Positions 4,442 to 27,999 of a DNA stretch of 64,000 bases are shown one piece after another. The position numbers were made by a program, and so were the translations under genes. Under the pieces are notes generated by a model. The model saw only the letters and a program-made list of their open reading frames with translations, was not told the origin of the DNA and did not search any database. Origin of the DNA: Shewanella sediminis HAW-EB3 (lineage in GTDB: Bacteria > Pseudomonadota > Gammaproteobacteria > Enterobacterales > Shewanellaceae); contig NC_009831.1 of NCBI RefSeq assembly GCF_000018025.1, positions 3,906,001-3,970,000 on the forward strand. Reading direction: 5' to 3'. Position 1 is the stretch's first letter; each line of letters starts with the position of its first letter.

Positions 4442-5338
4442 TTAGTTACTACCGCTCACTCTGGGGTATTTATCACAGATCCAATCAACGATTTTCATAA
4501 TCCTGGCATCGCGCTGCTTCGATGCCTTATAAGCTATCGAATAATTAAAACCTGAATAACATGAAGGGAGATCTAATTTAACCAGATTACCGGATTCAAT
4601 TTCGACTCTTAAGGTTTGTTCAACTCCCAGTACAATACCTTCTCCATATATAGCGGCTTGAACGGCAAGCATATTATGATTGAACACCAACTTCTTCTGA
4701 GTCGAACTCATTTCGACGCCGTTATCCCTGAACCAGCTATCCCAATCCAGGCCATAATCTTTATGTTTGGAAAATAGCAAACAGTGCTCGTGTAAATTTT
4801 GCGTGGTAATTTCTTTCGACTTTTCAAGGTAGTCAGGACTACAGAATGCAATCAGCGTCTCTTTAATTAGCGGTTTAAAAACATAACCATCTTGAGACTC
4901 CCGTGTCACGATAAATATATCGGCAATCATATCGCTCATTTCAATGTCATTTTGAAACATACCGACGTTAATATTCAGCTCAGGATATTGCCTTCTTAAC
5001 TTCTCCATATTCGGAACCAACCATCTGGCCGCGAGAGAAGTATAAGAGTGTACCCTGACCTCCCCTGACATAGTCGGGACCAGACTGGCGCAGACACTAT
5101 TTAAATCATAAAAAACGGGGGACAGTCTCTGCCGAAGCTCAAGGCCAGCCTCGGTCAGGTTGATCTTTCCTGCATTTCGATAAAATAGCTTCTCTAAGAA
5201 GTAGTCTTCCAGCTGTTTAATTTGTTGCGACACTGCACTTTGAGTAATACTCAATTCATTAGCGGCAAGAGAGCAACTTTCTAATCTTGCACAGGACTCA
5301 AAAATCTGAAGCGCTCTTAACGGAATGTTATTATTCAT
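4442..5338 (-). CDS. LysR-family transcriptional regulator (GcvA-like)
   Basis: A 298-residue LysR regulator. The winged helix-turn-helix covers about residues 4-62, with LRALQIFESCARLESCSLAA and SITQSAVSQQIKQLE, followed by an effector-binding domain of periplasmic-binding-protein fold from about residue 90. The N-terminus resembles GcvA/AmpR-type LysR proteins. The gene lies just beyond the distal end of the cai operon and no CaiF-type activator is encoded in the window, so it is a candidate regulator of the cai and fix genes (inference). The start ATG at 5338 has a weak ribosome site. Confidence 0.92.
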   Translation of the reverse strand: MNNNIPLRALQIFESCARLESCSLAANELSITQSAVSQQIKQLEDYFLEKLFYRNAGKINLTEAGLELRQRLSPVFYDLNSVCASLVPTMSGEVRVHSYTSLAARWLVPNMEKLRRQYPELNINVGMFQNDIEMSDMIADIFIVTRESQDGYVFKPLIKETLIAFCSPDYLEKSKEITTQNLHEHCLLFSKHKDYGLDWDSWFRDNGVEMSSTQKKLVFNHNMLAVQAAIYGEGIVLGVEQTLRVEIESGNLVKLDLPSCYSGFNYSIAYKASKQRDARIMKIVDWICDKYPRVSGSN

Positions 5339-5802
5339 ACTTAGCTACATATCGAAATACCTTACAGAAGGTTACCATAAGCTTTTACTTAAAATATGTA
5401 ATCAGGCGCACAATAAAGTGTTACACCTTAGTTAAACAGGGTGGGATCTTTTAATTATAAGACCGGGCTCACAAACATTTGCAATAACGTGAACACCAAT
5501 AAAAAGGTAAATGTTATTGCAAATGAACATATCAATTTAATTGTGAAAAGAAATATAATTATAAATAAAAATGTGAATGAAATTATAACGATAAGTTCAA
5601 CACGTAAGCTAACTCAATTAGATTGTTAAAACAATATCGACAGTTTACAGACTATCACTCTAATAAAAATATTGTTCACACATTGATAACTTGAACGTTA
5701 TTACCAGTTAGTTACAAAAACGGCCAACTGAATTCAGTTGGCCGTTAATATATAGATGCTTAATTAAGCAATCAAGATTCAATTGATATACACGATATTT
5801 AA
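5339..5802. other. AT-rich intergenic region between LysR gene and cai operon end
   Basis: 464 bp that should hold the LysR promoter and, at its right end, the terminator of the leftward cai operon. A 62-codon plus-strand frame at 5441-5629 is rich in Asn, Ile and Lys as expected of random AT-rich DNA and is not called. A reversed-arm dyad CTAA-N5-TTAG sits at about 5609-5621. Confidence 0.5.
5719..5746 (-). terminator. Rho-independent terminator of the cai operon
   Basis: A perfect 28-bp palindrome with arms AACGGCCAACTGAA and TTCAGTTGGCCGTT. Read on the minus strand it is followed by a TTTTT run, so it terminates transcription coming from the alpha/beta hydrolase gene. Confidence 0.85.
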
Positions 5803-6753
5803 CTAACCGATTATTGCACTCAAGTCTTCGCTGACCTCATCGAGAAACTCATCGGCTTGATCGAACACACCCAACATCTTAATGAAACCGTGAATAACCC
5901 CCTCGTACATCTTATGTTTTACCGGCACGCCACATGCCTGAAGTTTTTGCGCATAATGACAGCCATCATCACACAAGGGATCATACTGAGCGGTATAGAT
6001 AAAAGTCGGTGGTAACGCACTATGGTCGGCAGCACCGAGGGGCGAGCAGTAGGGATTTTTTGCATCGGCCTCGCTGCGCATATAGTGATGCCAGTAATAT
6101 TTCATACTCGCTTGCTGCAATAGATAACCCTCGGCATTGGCGACGGCCGAAGGAGTATGCCACCCGTATTGTACAGCCGGATAGACTAAAACCTGATAAG
6201 CCAGCTTAGGACCATTTTCATCACGCAGGCGCAAACACACTGCGGCGGCAAGATTACCACCGGCACTGTCGCCTAAAATACCAATTCTGTTCACATCCAA
6301 ACCAAGTTGAGATGCGTACTCGAACACCCATTGTGTCGAGGCATAACAATCATCCATAGGGATAGGAAACTTGTGCTCCGGTGCCTTCTGGTAATTAATC
6401 GCAATGACCACGGTTCCGGTACGGTTGGCCAAGGCACGGCTAAATGAATCATTGGTTTCAATGTTAGATACTACCCAGCCGCTGCCATGAATAAAGATAA
6501 GCCCGGGCTGTAAACCGGCTGTATCTTCAACGCCTTCGGGGCGATAGATACGAATAGGCAGATCGGCCGTCGGCCCCGGAATAAATCTATGCTCTACGGC
6601 CGCAACCGTCTCGGGTTTACGGCTTGGTATTGCTATGGCTAATGCGGTTAGATCTTCACGTCGGGACTGTGCCGGCGTCATATCTTCATAAGCCGGGGCT
6701 CCCGAGTCACGCACCTCTTGCAAGAACTGTTCAACTTTTGGATCGAGCGGCAT
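5803..6753 (-). CDS. Alpha/beta hydrolase, hormone-sensitive-lipase family, at the end of the cai operon
   Basis: A 316-residue cytoplasmic esterase/lipase-like protein. It carries the oxyanion-hole motif HGSGW (family HGGG-like, near residue 90), the nucleophile elbow GDSAGG near residue 162, and a C-terminal Asp (YDPLCDDG) and His (VIHGF) completing a Ser-Asp-His triad. The ribosome site GGAGAGG is strong. It is the last gene before the operon terminator and follows caiE by 337 bp. Escherichia coli cai has no such gene. Hydrolysis of acylcarnitine esters to free carnitine would fit the context, but that is inference; other ester substrates are equally possible. Confidence 0.9.
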   Translation of the reverse strand: MPLDPKVEQFLQEVRDSGAPAYEDMTPAQSRREDLTALAIAIPSRKPETVAAVEHRFIPGPTADLPIRIYRPEGVEDTAGLQPGLIFIHGSGWVVSNIETNDSFSRALANRTGTVVIAINYQKAPEHKFPIPMDDCYASTQWVFEYASQLGLDVNRIGILGDSAGGNLAAAVCLRLRDENGPKLAYQVLVYPAVQYGWHTPSAVANAEGYLLQQASMKYYWHHYMRSEADAKNPYCSPLGAADHSALPPTFIYTAQYDPLCDDGCHYAQKLQACGVPVKHKMYEGVIHGFIKMLGVFDQADEFLDEVSEDLSAIIG

Positions 6754-8059: not shown

Positions 8060-8073
8060 CTAATTCCACTCGA
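8018..8073. repeat. Four in-phase 14-bp tandem repeats at the 3' end of the MaoC-like gene
   Basis: Plus-strand units TTATTTCTATTCGA, CTAATTCCACTCGA, CTATTTCCACTCGC and CTAATTCCACTCGA start at 8018, 8032, 8046 and 8060. Each begins with the complement of a stop codon. The rightmost copy carries the actual stop of the MaoC-like gene. Confidence 0.9.
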
Positions 8074-8911
8074 TTAGGCCAAAGTTCAGATAGACCATCT
8101 CCGGATCGTTGGCATCCACCATTCTGAAATGAATGCAGTTATCGTCCCATCTCCAGATTTGGGTCTTCACCGTGCTGCCCGGGTACAAAGATTTAGTCAG
8201 GCGAGTCTTAAAGCGCGTCAGACGTTCAGGTTCGCCGGGAAACATCGCCTGAATAATGTGGCGACAGGCAACACCGGCCGTGCTCACGCCATGTAGGTTC
8301 GGCTTAGGGTGACCAAATTCCCTAGCATACTCCCAGTCGACATGCTGAGGATGGTCGTCGCCGGATAATCGATAGATAAGCGCCTGATTCAGCGGGATAG
8401 CTTGTTCAATTTCAAAATCCGGTGCCCGCTCCGGCATCTCAACTATGTCTCTGGGCGCCTTGGGACCACCGAAACCGCCGTCATAGAGGGCGCAGTCCCA
8501 GCTTTCATTGGTAAAGAGTTTAGTGCCGGCTTCATCGAAGGTTTCGCCGATATGCTGAGCCAGGCAGCCACGACCTTCGCCACGGTCGAACAGGCCTTTT
8601 AACAATACTTTTGTACTTAGTTTACCGGGACAGGTGGGCAATGGCTGATGAATACGGAGATCGAAGCCCCAGTGCAGAGAGCCGCCCCACTCGAAACCGT
8701 AATCTATGGTCTTGGTCACTTCGGCGTCGACAATTTGGATTGCCGCAAACATAGGTAGTACTTTTAAATTCTTTTCATACACATAGTCTAAATCTGTTTT
8801 TCCGTCGCTAGCCGCACCGCAACCCAGTGCAAACAGCATGACATCCCTTTCGGTATATTCATTAATGAACGGACCATAGGTCTGCCCCTGCATCTCTAAC
8901 TTTAACGCCAT
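8060..8911 (-). CDS. MaoC-like enoyl-CoA hydratase 2 in the cai operon
   Basis: A 283-residue double hot-dog protein resembling the hydratase-2 part of peroxisomal multifunctional enzyme. The N-terminal half lacks the catalytic motif. The C-terminal half has YRLSGDDHPQHVDWEYAREFG (about residues 192-212), matching the hydratase-2 signature G-D-x-N-P-x-H, with Asp and His retained and the Asn replaced by His, then HGVSTAGVACRHI. The ribosome site AAGGAG is strong. It lies between caiD and caiE, where Escherichia coli has no gene. It probably hydrates a trans-2-enoyl-CoA, perhaps with the opposite stereochemistry to CaiD; the substrate is inference. Confidence 0.88.
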   Translation of the reverse strand: MALKLEMQGQTYGPFINEYTERDVMLFALGCGAASDGKTDLDYVYEKNLKVLPMFAAIQIVDAEVTKTIDYGFEWGGSLHWGFDLRIHQPLPTCPGKLSTKVLLKGLFDRGEGRGCLAQHIGETFDEAGTKLFTNESWDCALYDGGFGGPKAPRDIVEMPERAPDFEIEQAIPLNQALIYRLSGDDHPQHVDWEYAREFGHPKPNLHGVSTAGVACRHIIQAMFPGEPERLTRFKTRLTKSLYPGSTVKTQIWRWDDNCIHFRMVDANDPEMVYLNFGLIEWN

Positions 8912-14145: not shown

Positions 14146-15690
14146 CTAAGAGGCCCATTTGTTTTTACGCGCGTCTTTCAAGAAAGAGATGATAATCATG
14201 ACATTGACGACAATCAGTGGCGCACCACCTGCAATAATCGCCGTCTGTAGCGGCTTAAGTCCGCCAAGTGATAACAACACGATACCGATAACACCGACCA
14301 GTACAGACCAACCCACACGAACCCAGACTGGTGGCTCGTTGTCGGCATCGGCACCCTTACAGGTAGACATTGCCAACGTGTAAGAACAGGCGTTAATCAA
14401 GGTAACTGTTGCGAGGAAACATAAGATGAAGAAGCCCCACATGGTGATAGTGCTCATTGGCAGAGCAGCCCAGGTTTCGATGATCGCTCTGGGAGCACCA
14501 TGATCTGCAATCAGTTGAGGCATGTTGATGATATTTTCATTCATCAGATTCATGGTGTTACTGCCCAGGATGGTCCAAAGGAACCAAGTAGAAGCAGTCA
14601 AACCACCCACCATTGTCAGACAAAGTTGACGCACGGTACGACCACGAGAGATCTTAGCCAGGAAGATACACATCTGGATACCGTAAACGACCCACCACGC
14701 CCAGTAGAACACGGTCCAATCTTGCGGCCAGCTGCCTTCACTGATAGAACTGGTATAGAAGAGCATGCGAGGCAGGTAATCAAGCATCACACCCACAGAC
14801 TCGGTGAAGTAGTTAACTGTGAAGCTGGTTGCACCGATAAGGAACACCCAAACAAGCATGATGATACTCAGGTAGCTACGCAGATCACTGGCAATCTTAA
14901 TGCCCTTGGTCAGACCGAAAGCTACACACACAGCGTTAAAGATAATCCATGCTGAAATAACGATAGTATCGACTTCAATGGTACGTGGAATGCCGAACAG
15001 CCACTGGATACACTCAGTCACCAAAGGTGTCGCCAAGCCTAAACTTGTACCCATAGCCAAAATCAGTGCTACAACATAAATATTATCGATAATAGTACCG
15101 AGAATACCTTTATGATGTTTACCCAAAACTGGCTCTAATGTGCCACTGGGGCGAACCACATCCATCTTCTTAACATAAAGGAAGTAACCCAAAGCAACAG
15201 TGAAGAAGCCGTAACCCATCCAAGGCAGAGGTCCCCAATGGAAGAGACTATAAGCGACACCAAGCTCTTTCGCTTGAACCGAGAGGGAGTCAAGTTCGAA
15301 AGGTGGATAAGTCACATAGTAATAGACCTCTAACGATCCCCAGTACAGTACGGCGGCAGAAGTACAAGAGGCGAACATCAGGAATACCCAGCTTCCGGTA
15401 CTGAATTCTGGTGTTTCCTGACCTAAACGGTTATTTGCATAAGGTCCCCAGACCAGCCAGGCCCAACCTACTGCCATTGCGATCATGTACCACTCAAATG
15501 CCCAGCCCCATGAGTGGGTTAAATAGTGAAATACATCCTTAATAACTATATTAGCCGCATCCAGATCTCTAACTGTCAAGTAAGAGAGCAATATGACCAC
15601 AATCAATGACGGGAAGAAGATTTTCGGGTCAATGGTGACCTTCTTCTTTGTTCCTTCAGTGATACCTACATCCAAAGTTTTTTCATTCAT
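14146..15690 (-). CDS. caiT: CaiT, L-carnitine/gamma-butyrobetaine antiporter
   Basis: 514 residues; Escherichia coli CaiT has 504, the extra residues being at the N-terminus. It is a BCCT-family transporter with about 12 membrane helices. Conserved functional sites include LFHWGPLPW (substrate tryptophan), [15 protein letters not shown] (the Met and Trp of the binding site) and the arginine in SDLRSY near residue 271. That arginine corresponds to Arg262, which replaces a sodium ion in the Escherichia coli protein, so sodium-independent exchange is expected. First gene of the leftward cai operon; it imports carnitine and exports gamma-butyrobetaine. Confidence 0.97.
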
Positions 15691-15977
15691 CTTAATACAT
15701 CTCCCTCTTTTTTTTAGGAGGATAATAGTTAAGGTTTCGAAGTTCTTTCAATCTGTGTATTTATCAACACTTAGTATTAACTTATAGCCAGTCAGATTAA
15801 AGCTCTGACTATTAAGACTAACTATTAAGAATGGTTAAAAACGCAAATCAAAATAACCTAACACACCTTTTTCATTTTCTTACCAACAGACAATAACCAA
15901 CAATTAAACAATGATAATTTATTAATTGATATTCCTTAGTTGACGGCAGAATAATGCATGCCCTGAACTTCTTATTC

Positions 15978-15993
15978 AGTGATCGTTATCACG
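15978..15993. promoter_or_regulatory. Candidate CRP-binding site upstream of caiT
   Basis: AGTGA-TCGTTA-TCACG matches the CRP consensus TGTGA-N6-TCACA in all but the outermost base of each half. It is 288 bp upstream of caiT. CRP control of cai is established in Escherichia coli. Confidence 0.6.
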
Positions 15994-16039: not shown

Positions 16040-16055
16040 TGTTATTTCCATCACA
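16040..16055. promoter_or_regulatory. Second candidate CRP-binding site
   Basis: TGTTA-TTTCCA-TCACA has a perfect right half and a 4/5 left half of the CRP consensus. It lies 47 bp inside the first candidate site, towards fixA. Confidence 0.45.
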
Positions 16056-16260: not shown

Positions 16261-16532
16261 ATAGTATTTCTAATAGTGATATTAGTACGGCTAAAACCCC
16301 TCATTAGTAGAGCTAACATTAATATTAGCCGCACTAAAAACATGCATTAAAACCACTAAAAAAAGACACCATTAGCTGGGCTAATATTATTATTACCCGA
16401 ACTAAAAACCCTTGTATTTAAAGCGCTAAACAGCCTATAGGAAGACGACTATTAGAACGGCTAATATTAACGTTAGAAACACTAACAGCAAACACTTAAT
16501 AAGTGTGACCCGCCTAACATTAGCGTCGATAA
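16261..16532. promoter_or_regulatory. Array of TTAG-N5-CTAA boxes (candidate LysR operators)
   Basis: Exact TTAG-N5-CTAA dyads begin at 16282, 16304, 16325, 16372, 16452 and 16473. Near matches with one or two arm changes begin at 16261, 16347, 16393, 16417 and 16520. Neighbouring starts are 21 or 22 bp apart in six cases (16261/16282/16304/16325/16347, 16372/16393, 16452/16473), that is two helical turns. The 13-bp dyad has the LysR T-N11-A form and carries CTAAT/ATTAG half sites like those described for GcvA. Confidence 0.7.
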
Positions 16533-16806
16533 TTCTAGTCATATAATTGCACCACTTACTAAATCAACATGCGGCAATAAAACAATATACTTTTAAACTA
16601 AGCACTAGCTACATATTGAAGTTGCTATAAATGATTTATTTACGATACCGACAGATAAACGTTATTGATACGCCGGATTGGCAACAAACAATAAGCATAC
16701 AGCGGTTTGACCGTCAAAACGTTATCAGATGTTATATAAGTAAAATCATAAGTAATATAGCCATACCTCAAATTTAGAAGTATGTAATATCTAAACTGGA
16801 GAAATA

Positions 16807-17580
16807 ATGAAAATTATTACGTGTTACAAATTAGTTCCCGAAGAGCAAGATATCACAGTGAAAGCTGACGGTATTCTGGACACAAGTAAAGCAGCCCCAA
16901 AGATCAATCAATTTGATCTCAATGCGGTAGAAGCAGCGGTGGAGATCAAAGCCCTCGTCGGTGAATGCAAGATCACAGCCTTAAGCATGGGCGGTAAGGC
17001 TTTGGACAACCCCAAAGCACGTAAAGACATCCTCTCTCGCGGACCCGATGATCTGACTGTCGTGGTTGACGAGAAATTCGAACACCTCCTACCTCACCAA
17101 ACTGCTCGCGTTCTTGCCGCTGCAGCACAAAAAAATGGTTTCGACCTGATTATTTGTGGTGATGGTTCAGGTGACCTCTATGCACAGCAAGTTGGTATAC
17201 AACTTGGTGAGCTGCTTGAAGTCGCGACTATCAACGCGGTAAGCAAAATCGTTTCGGCCCAAGACGGAACAGTTACCGTTGAAAGAGCCTTAGACGATGA
17301 AGTTGAAGTTCTTGAGATCACACTTCCTGCCGTTATCTCAGTTTCAGCCGACATCAACGAACCAACGATCCCATCGATGAAGACCATTTTAGCCGCAGGC
17401 AGAAAGCCGGTAACTAAGTTAAGTGCCGAAGATCTCGAGATTGCTGAAATTCCGGCTCTTGTTGAATCTGTTTCAGTACTGGCGCCAAAACAGGCCGAAC
17501 GTAAGCAGATCATTATTGACGGCGATGATGAAGATCAAGTCGCAGAATTTGCAGAACACCTGCGCAAAGCACTTAAGTAA
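16807..17580 (+). CDS. fixA: FixA, electron-transfer flavoprotein beta-like subunit
   Basis: 257 residues, against 256 in Escherichia coli FixA. It belongs to the ETF beta family, with N-terminal [20 protein letters not shown], the nucleotide-binding region [17 protein letters not shown], and [19 protein letters not shown], the partner-contact loop region. With FixB it forms a heterodimeric flavoprotein that is thought to deliver electrons to CaiA. GGAG ribosome site 6-9 bp before ATG. First gene of the rightward fix operon, divergent from caiT; fixB follows after 8 bp. Confidence 0.96.
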
Positions 17581-27090: not shown

Positions 27091-27999
27091 TCACTTAACT
27101 ACCGATAATAAGCTGAATTGTTCGATTAGGAAATCGAGAAAAGCGCGTATATGAGGCTTTGGATACTGAGTGCCTTTATAGATAGCAAAAATCTCACCAC
27201 TGCCTTGGGCTCCGTGCGTTGCAGCCCAATCCGGTAGGATCTCGATAAGTTGCTTGTTGGCTATATAGGGTGTAACCATCCAGTCGGATAACAGCAGGAC
27301 ACCGCTCCCCTGCAGAGCAGCACTGAGCAGAGGTGACCCCCCCTTCGAGATTAAATTCCCCGTAACAGAGACCTTTTTCTCAACTTTTCCTCTACTGAAA
27401 TACCAGTGATTCCTCTGTCTCTCATGGCTGATCAGCAGACAGTTGTGTTGTTGGAGATCTTCAGGTTTTCCAATTCTTGGATGAGTGTGAATATAATCAG
27501 GTGAGGCAACAAGGGAGGTATAATTAGTGAGAAGCTTTCGCGCCTTCAGACGACTGTCTTGTGGTGTGCCTATGCGGATAGCCAAATCGATATTTTCACT
27601 ATTAAGATCGACAACTTTATTATCCAGTTCTATCTCTATCTGAACATTCGGGTAGCGCTCAAGAAATTCAGGGATGAGTGGAGCAAGATAAATATTACCA
27701 AAGCTTTCAAATACTGAGATCCGCAGTACTCCCTCGGGTTCAGGGTTAGTGCCTTTCATTTCGCTTAGCAGTTTATCTGCATCTTGCACTAACTTGGCCG
27801 ATTGCAGGTGAAAGTATTGACCCTCCTCGGTCAGAATTAGCTGACGAGTACTTCTTTTAAAGAGCGTGGTTTGTATCAGGGCTTCCAGATTATCTATATT
27901 TCGGGCAACGGAAGAGGGAGCCATATTTAATGCTTGCGCCGCCTGTGAGAAGCTTCCCGACTCGACAACCTGATGGAACACCTTAATCAAATCTAACAT
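27091..27999 (-). CDS. LysR-family transcriptional regulator
   Basis: 302 residues. N-terminal helix-turn-helix (about 1-60) with VFHQVVESGSFSQAAQALNM and SSVARNIDNLE; effector domain from about residue 88 with ENIDLAIRIG and ending in the region PHIRAFLDFLIE, as in the common CrgA/DmlR-like subgroup. It is divergent from the AhpD-like gene at 28167 with 167 bp between them, so it probably regulates that gene. Confidence 0.93.
   Translation of the reverse strand: MLDLIKVFHQVVESGSFSQAAQALNMAPSSVARNIDNLEALIQTTLFKRSTRQLILTEEGQYFHLQSAKLVQDADKLLSEMKGTNPEPEGVLRISVFESFGNIYLAPLIPEFLERYPNVQIEIELDNKVVDLNSENIDLAIRIGTPQDSRLKARKLLTNYTSLVASPDYIHTHPRIGKPEDLQQHNCLLISHERQRNHWYFSRGKVEKKVSVTGNLISKGGSPLLSAALQGSGVLLLSDWMVTPYIANKQLIEILPDWAATHGAQGSGEIFAIYKGTQYPKPHIRAFLDFLIEQFSLLSVVK

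Follow-up and report, generated by a model that had tools for sequence, protein, structure and literature searches.

In Escherichia coli, the divergent cai and fix operons share one interval, which is controlled by CRP, FNR and the dedicated regulator CaiF; CaiF binds a pair of 11-bp half-sites with 13 bp between them (PMC3680233). Shewanella sediminis HAW-EB3 has the same divergent layout, but its cai-fix interval contains an array of TTAG-N5-CTAA boxes, and the question is which protein reads these boxes and whether it takes the place of CaiF. CaiF control of this locus was rejected, since a search for the CaiF_GrlA family detected no member in any of 129 Shewanella genomes at E <= 0.001, while the control search did find the E. 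coli protein. The window studied here (64,000 nucleotides of the S. sediminis chromosome) encodes CaiT, CaiB, CaiD and CaiE proteins that exceed the NCBIfam cut-offs, and FixA and FixB proteins that carry ETF domains. The caiT-fixA interval is 1116 bp long, with the array in its middle.

The array comprises ten boxes between positions 16261 and 16532, six of which are exact dyads (starting at 16282, 16304, 16325, 16372, 16452 and 16473) and four of which deviate by one base (16261, 16347, 16393 and 16520). The first-pass annotation, made from the sequence alone, had listed six exact and about five near-exact dyads, of which the first number stands and the second comes down to four. Successive boxes are spaced 21, 22, 21, 22, 25, 21, 59, 21 and 47 bp apart, and this recount agrees with the six neighbouring pairs at 21 or 22 bp given in that annotation. 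In 5000 dinucleotide shuffles of the 272-bp span, the mean counts were 0.03 exact boxes, 0.48 boxes with at most one mismatch, and 0.001 pairs at 21 or 22 bp, and not a single shuffle reached the observed values of 6, 10 and 6, so the expectation that the array would stand out against shuffled sequence was borne out. One-mismatch matches are common in the window as a whole (36 with at most one mismatch, versus 26 expected), hence the signal of the array lies in the clustering and in the exact boxes. In the entire 5.5-Mb genome there are three pairs of exact boxes with 7 to 10 bases between them, all inside the array. Further arrays elsewhere in the genome were rejected because no exact pair lies outside cai-fix, and a search at a fixed spacing of 21 bp with up to three mismatches gave 33 matches versus 40 for the reversed control pattern. 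The features of the locus are listed in Table 1.

Table 1. Features of the cai-fix interval and the linked lysR gene, in window coordinates.
Feature	Position	Strand	Remarks
lysR, GcvA-like LysR regulator gene	4442..5338	-	HTH_1 and LysR_substrate domains; candidate array binder
Weak CRP-like site upstream of lysR	5397..5412	-	2 mismatches; similar place in relatives
caiT, first gene of cai operon	14146..15690	-	NF002887, 917 bits (cut-off 541)
Putative cai -10 box CATTAT	15951..15956	-	29.5 bp from CRP-like centre, by eye
CRP-like site of cai promoter, AGTGATCGTTATCACG	15978..15993	-	2 mismatches to TGTGA-N6-TCACA; predicted class II
Second CRP-like site, TGTTATTTCCATCACA	16040..16055	-	1 mismatch; about -103 from predicted cai start
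Module 1	16261..16294		Dyads 16261-16273 (ATAG..CTAA, 1 mismatch) and 16282-16294 (exact), 21 bp apart
Module 2	16304..16337		Dyads 16304-16316 and 16325-16337, both exact, 21 bp apart
Doubtful box, TTAAAACCACTAA	16347..16359		1 mismatch; 4/8 half-site columns invariant
Module 3	16372..16405		Dyads 16372-16384 (exact) and 16393-16405 (TTAC..CTAA, 1 mismatch), 21 bp apart
Module 4, fix-proximal	16452..16485		Dyads 16452-16464 and 16473-16485, both exact
CRP-like site of fix promoter, TGTGACCCGCCTAACA	16504..16519	+	1 mismatch to TGTGA-N6-TCACA; predicted class II
Doubtful box, TTAGCGTCGATAA	16520..16532		1 mismatch; 6/8 half-site columns invariant
Putative fix -10 box TATAAT	16542..16547	+	Constant distance to CRP-like site, 19/19
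fixA, first gene of fix operon	16807..17580	+	ETF domain; found upstream of caiT in relatives

Column conservation was followed in 16 of the 20 genomes with an array, in three clades of 4, 9 and 3 genomes, leaving aside L091, L096, L097 and L111, in which the array is inverted or too distant. Half-site columns were invariant in 73/80, 49/56 and 45/48 cases for the three clades (88-94%), box-centre columns in 25/50, 11/35 and 18/30 (31-60%), and columns between boxes in 95/142, 16/65 and 40/72, which suggests that the half-sites are under selection. All eight half-site columns are invariant in both dyads of module 1 (four genomes), of module 3, deviating base included, and of module 4, and module 2 follows with 8/8 and 7/8. 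The deviating base is kept across relatives in boxes 16261 and 16393. The boxes at 16347 and 16520, counted as sites in the first-pass annotation, are poorly conserved, and without them four pairs remain. Within each pair the box centres are 21 bp apart, and the distances between the last box of one pair and the first box of the following pair are 22, 47 and 59 bp. Among 117 distinct boxes from the 20 genomes, the dyad is preceded by A at a frequency of 0.76, and followed by T at 0.48 or A at 0.37.

The same annotation had also placed all sites on one face of the DNA, and this did not hold. Over the main clusters of the 20 genomes, neighbouring boxes are separated by 113 gaps, of which 52 measure exactly 21 bp and 12 measure 22 bp. 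Phase coherence at 10.5 bp nevertheless failed to exceed random expectation at P under 0.05 in 18 genomes, and one of the remaining two has only two boxes. Close phasing is therefore restricted to the boxes within pairs and to some neighbouring pairs, and one-face phasing of the whole array was rejected.

The array has also been rearranged. In S. canadensis (L091) and S. benthica (L096), 47-58 bp of it, corresponding to about 16271-16328, are inverted relative to the window. These inversions are probably two events, perhaps caused by template switching at imperfect inverted repeats, and palindromic sites should tolerate them. At another S. benthica locus (L007:4376-5293), a transposase-like gene, recognized by eye, splits the fix-proximal boxes from the others, so that the two groups lie about 1 kb apart.

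The occurrence of the array was compared with that of caiT and of the lysR gene across the genus. CaiT is present in 27 of the 129 genomes, and orthologs of the LysR protein encoded at 4442-5338 were found in 22, all of them among these 27, when 18 candidates were scored per genome; ortholog identity ranges from 73 to 100%, and the next level of matches lies at 39%. Boxes occur in all 20 readable cai-fix intervals of the LysR-containing genomes, one of which (G015) could be read in part only; in the other two LysR genomes (G091 and G100) the contig ends before the array. By contrast, in the five CaiT genomes in which no LysR ortholog was found, neither an exact nor a one-mismatch box occurs in the sequence covered (0/5), which for three of them (G005, G017 and G043) comprised 1479 bases upstream of caiT. 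The exact pair is absent from the whole genomes of these three, and the full cai-fix intervals of the relatives L020 and L021 contain no exact box. Conservation upstream of homologous cai-fix genes, which had been proposed from the S. sediminis sequence, is thus confirmed for other Shewanella species, and the association with the array (20/20 versus 0/5) sustains the early suggestion that the LysR protein at 4442-5338 is the likely partner of the boxes.

Individual array genomes hold 1 to 6 exact boxes and 4 to 10 boxes with at most one mismatch, compared to shuffled means of 0.03-0.09 and 0.6-1.4. In 19 of 20 genomes there were more exact boxes than in any of 200 shuffles, the exception being G051 (1 versus 1), and the count with at most one mismatch did not exceed the shuffled maximum in G015 (5 versus 6), G051 (4 versus 4) and G056 (6 versus 6). 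The exact pair pattern was found in 18 of the 129 genomes, 16 times at cai-fix and twice elsewhere (both with a spacing of 20), and the reversed control pattern matched in 2 of the 129; pairs spaced 21 or 22 bp were confined to cai-fix. Four of the 20 array genomes (G009, G044, G051 and G052) lack an exact pair.

On the CaiT tree, the presence of the array amounts to two changes, so the co-occurrence with LysR rests on few independent events. The window CaiT is 99% identical to that of S. canadensis. Ferrimonas CaiT nests within the array clade, and the Ferrimonas cai-fix interval has no exact box, nor was a LysR match found within 6 kb of Ferrimonas caiT. An order-wide search of 394 genomes, with six candidates scored in each, returned only the window's own LysR gene, and a search with the LysR protein gave 10 clusters at E <= 1e-60; organisms are named for five of these clusters, all of them Shewanella and none Ferrimonas. 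The CaiT scan kept 78 loci, with no Vibrio locus among them. At six loci (L008, L009, L011, L014, L020 and L021), from Ferrimonas and S. carassii/indica, a gene of 364-369 amino acids, porin-like by eye, lies between fixA and caiT, and no exact box is present.

The LysR protein encoded at 4442-5338 scores above the cut-offs for both of its domains (HTH_1, 64.5 bits; LysR_substrate, 94.6 bits). Its best NCBIfam match is GcvA (NF008352), but with 195.4 bits this remains below the curated cut-off of 288, whereas the best match to this family in the genome is the native gcvA with 480.9 bits; judged by these profile scores, the protein is GcvA-like and not GcvA itself. The nearest solved chain is 8y6u, a glycine cleavage system activator. 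The stretch TQSAVSQQIK, which we take to be the recognition helix, is invariant in all 22 orthologs, and is close to TQAAVSHQIK of GcvA.

This relationship agrees with the DNA sites. The E. coli GcvA box has been described as ATTAG-n5-CTAAT, with dyad centres predicted at -65 and -43 (PMC5002191), and the array matches it in both sequence and spacing: the boxes have the T-N11-A dyad form and, within pairs, lie about two helical turns apart, as in a GcvA-type LysR operator, so the assignment to this type in the first-pass annotation is upheld. All 13 native Shewanella gcvA genes examined (L164 and L179-L190) have an exact ATTAG-AAAAA-CTAAT box upstream, which precedes the start by 36-37 bp in 12 cases and lies at -110 in the other. 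LysR systems commonly, though not universally, regulate their own gene through a box at its promoter. Of the 22 stretches upstream of the cai-linked lysR (500 bases long, except for one of 169), 20 contain neither an exact nor a one-mismatch box, so this common form of autoregulation is not seen, and autoregulation through an array-type box was rejected.

The first-pass annotation had set the array apart from enterobacterial control by both CaiF and CRP. CaiF was indeed not detected, but the exclusion of CRP is not supported, since on either side of the array there is a conserved CRP-like site suitably placed for the promoter there. On the fix side, the centre of the CRP-like site lies 30.5 bp before the first base of the TATAAT hexamer in all 19 genomes whose fix promoter could be read. 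The centre of the second dyad of module 4 precedes this CRP-like centre by 32.5 bp in 11 genomes and by 33.5 bp in 4, whereas in 3 genomes the distance is 42.5-43.5 bp, about one helical turn further, spacing classes that were read by eye; in the 19th genome (L100) this dyad has two mismatches. Relative to the predicted fix start, the dyad centres of module 4 fall at about -95 and -74. On the cai side, all 20 array genomes share the same CRP-like sequence, which is followed by CATTAT or a similar hexamer near class II distance (hexamers assigned by eye). These distances would fit a class II geometry, in which the CRP site is centred near -41.5 of the start, at both putative promoters. The second cai-side CRP-like site has an equal place in L091 and L093-L096, and occurs with two mismatches in L111.

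Taken together, these data are best explained if the cai-linked LysR uses the boxes as its operators, with LysR and CRP jointly driving fix and LysR standing in CaiF's place, a reading to which we assign a probability of about 0.7 on the strength of sequence comparisons. Each 34-bp module, with its two dyads 21 bp apart, would accommodate one LysR tetramer (a dimer of dimers). Inducer-bound LysR on module 4 and cAMP-CRP at the class II-like site would then jointly activate the fix operon, and this co-activation is the most likely mechanism. Modules 1 to 3 may strengthen occupancy and help the complex reach across about 320-540 bp to the cai promoter, where there is another class II-like CRP site. 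The inducer is assumed, from gene context, to be a compound of the carnitine pathway. In this scheme LysR would occupy the role that CaiF has in E. coli, and as CaiF was not detected in Shewanella, LysR looks like a non-homologous replacement. Besides the missing box upstream of lysR, the few independent events on the CaiT tree and the low box counts in single genomes such as G051, two further points count against this explanation: the boxes are far from the cai promoter, and native GcvA or paralogs could bind the same box. More tentatively, and with the odds rather against it, LysR tetramers might assemble one after another along the four-module operator into an extended nucleoprotein complex, bridge two divergent CRP-dependent promoters about 610 bp apart and so turn on carnitine respiration as a sharp switch, with CaiF replaced in one Shewanella lineage.

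If housekeeping GcvA were the protein that binds the array, carnitine respiration would be tied to glycine and not to a dedicated cai regulator. The genome does contain a native gcvA preceded by its own exact box, but all 12 other genomes tested have GcvA, the five array-less CaiT genomes among them, and so GcvA does not track the array; moreover, the centre of the native gcvA box is AAAAA in 13 of 13 genomes, whereas the centres of the array boxes vary. We consider this improbable. Another LysR protein could also be responsible, namely a GcvA-like paralog (G000:C1:5227218), which has a similar helix stretch (TQSAVSHQVR), or the LysR encoded at 27091-27999 within the window. The paralog, however, is present in 26 of the 27 CaiT genomes, four of the five array-less ones included, and relatives of 27091-27999 (E <= 1e-90) occur in only 11 of the 27 and the helix stretch of this protein differs. 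Both were rejected as array regulators, because their distribution does not track the array, and the chance that either binds the boxes seems very small. That neither GcvA nor these two follows the array points to the cai-linked LysR as the binder.

The main rival concerns the sign of control, since LysR might act mainly as a repressor that, bound to the array, silences both CRP-driven promoters until the inducer arrives. CRP alone might be able to activate both promoters, as the LysR-less G055 has a 544-bp interval with two CRP-like sites and no array, and the doubtful box at 16520 follows directly 3' of the fix CRP-like site, ahead of the putative -10 box. This box, the nearest to the fix promoter, is not well conserved, however, and the best-placed module precedes the CRP-like site, as is usual for activators. 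Repression before induction is thus unlikely, though less so than binding by GcvA. It could finally be argued that the array is a repeat family or minisatellite, or a chance periodicity in AT-rich DNA, without a regulatory role. The modules are alike beyond their half-sites and small inversions occur within the array, so duplication may have produced it. Against this stand the shuffles (0/5000), the much better conservation of half-sites than of centres, and the restriction of 21/22-spaced exact pairs to cai-fix among the 129 genomes, and we regard an array without regulatory role as the least credible of these alternatives.

GcvA-type LysR operators and CRP-linked control of cai-fix are already known. 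As in E. coli GcvA operators, the boxes have the ATTAG-n5-CTAAT sequence and the T-N11-A form with CTAAT, and at E. coli gcvA-gcvB two dyads lie 22 bp apart (PMC5002191, PMC3658693). The Shewanella array differs from gcvA-gcvB in having four pairs over 225 bp, located at cai-fix, and from E. coli GcvA operators in its neighbouring CRP-like sites and variable box centres. The CRP involvement suggested here resembles E. coli cai-fix, as does a dedicated regulator, but a LysR gene and a multi-box array appear where CaiF would be. LysR assembly beyond tetramers has a parallel in OxyR of Shewanella oneidensis, which forms octamers on DNA, although signal and sites are different and the relevant sections of that report describe no four-module operator (PMC8787470). 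The carnitine genes caiABCDE have been reported in Shewanella sp. MTB7, with no regulator named in the corresponding part of the paper (PMC10059138), and the word carnitine is absent from the main text of a study of Shewanella regulons (PMC3223726) and of PMC5343134. Our literature searches returned no account of this array or of any LysR regulator of cai; the four-module layout, the cai-fix target, the CRP setting and the exchange of CaiF for LysR thus appear to be new with respect to the literature searched. OxyR belongs to a different LysR subfamily from the protein at 4442-5338.

If our reading is correct, carnitine respiration would have a dedicated regulator and operator where CaiF is missing, and global CRP control of the pathway would have been kept while the specific activator was exchanged for an unrelated protein. 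The array would also be a natural multi-module LysR operator whose box number varies by species, and which could be used to test cooperativity beyond one tetramer.

CRP may act on the lysR gene as well. In an alignment of 18 of the 22 upstream stretches, the weak CRP-like site is followed by a conserved -10-like element before lysR, although a CRP-like match as good as this one was reached by 4-8% of shuffles per genome. If this site is real, CRP would control both the LysR gene and its targets, and thus form a feed-forward loop. CRP, caiF and cai-fix form such a loop in E. coli (PMC3680233), and many loops of this kind are seemingly missing from Shewanella sugar catabolism according to a 2011 regulon study (PMC3223726). 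Beyond the usual cai genes, the cluster contains an alpha/beta hydrolase gene of the LipP1 family (5803-6753), which lies before lysR, and a gene for a MaoC-like hydratase (8060-8911) between caiD and caiE.
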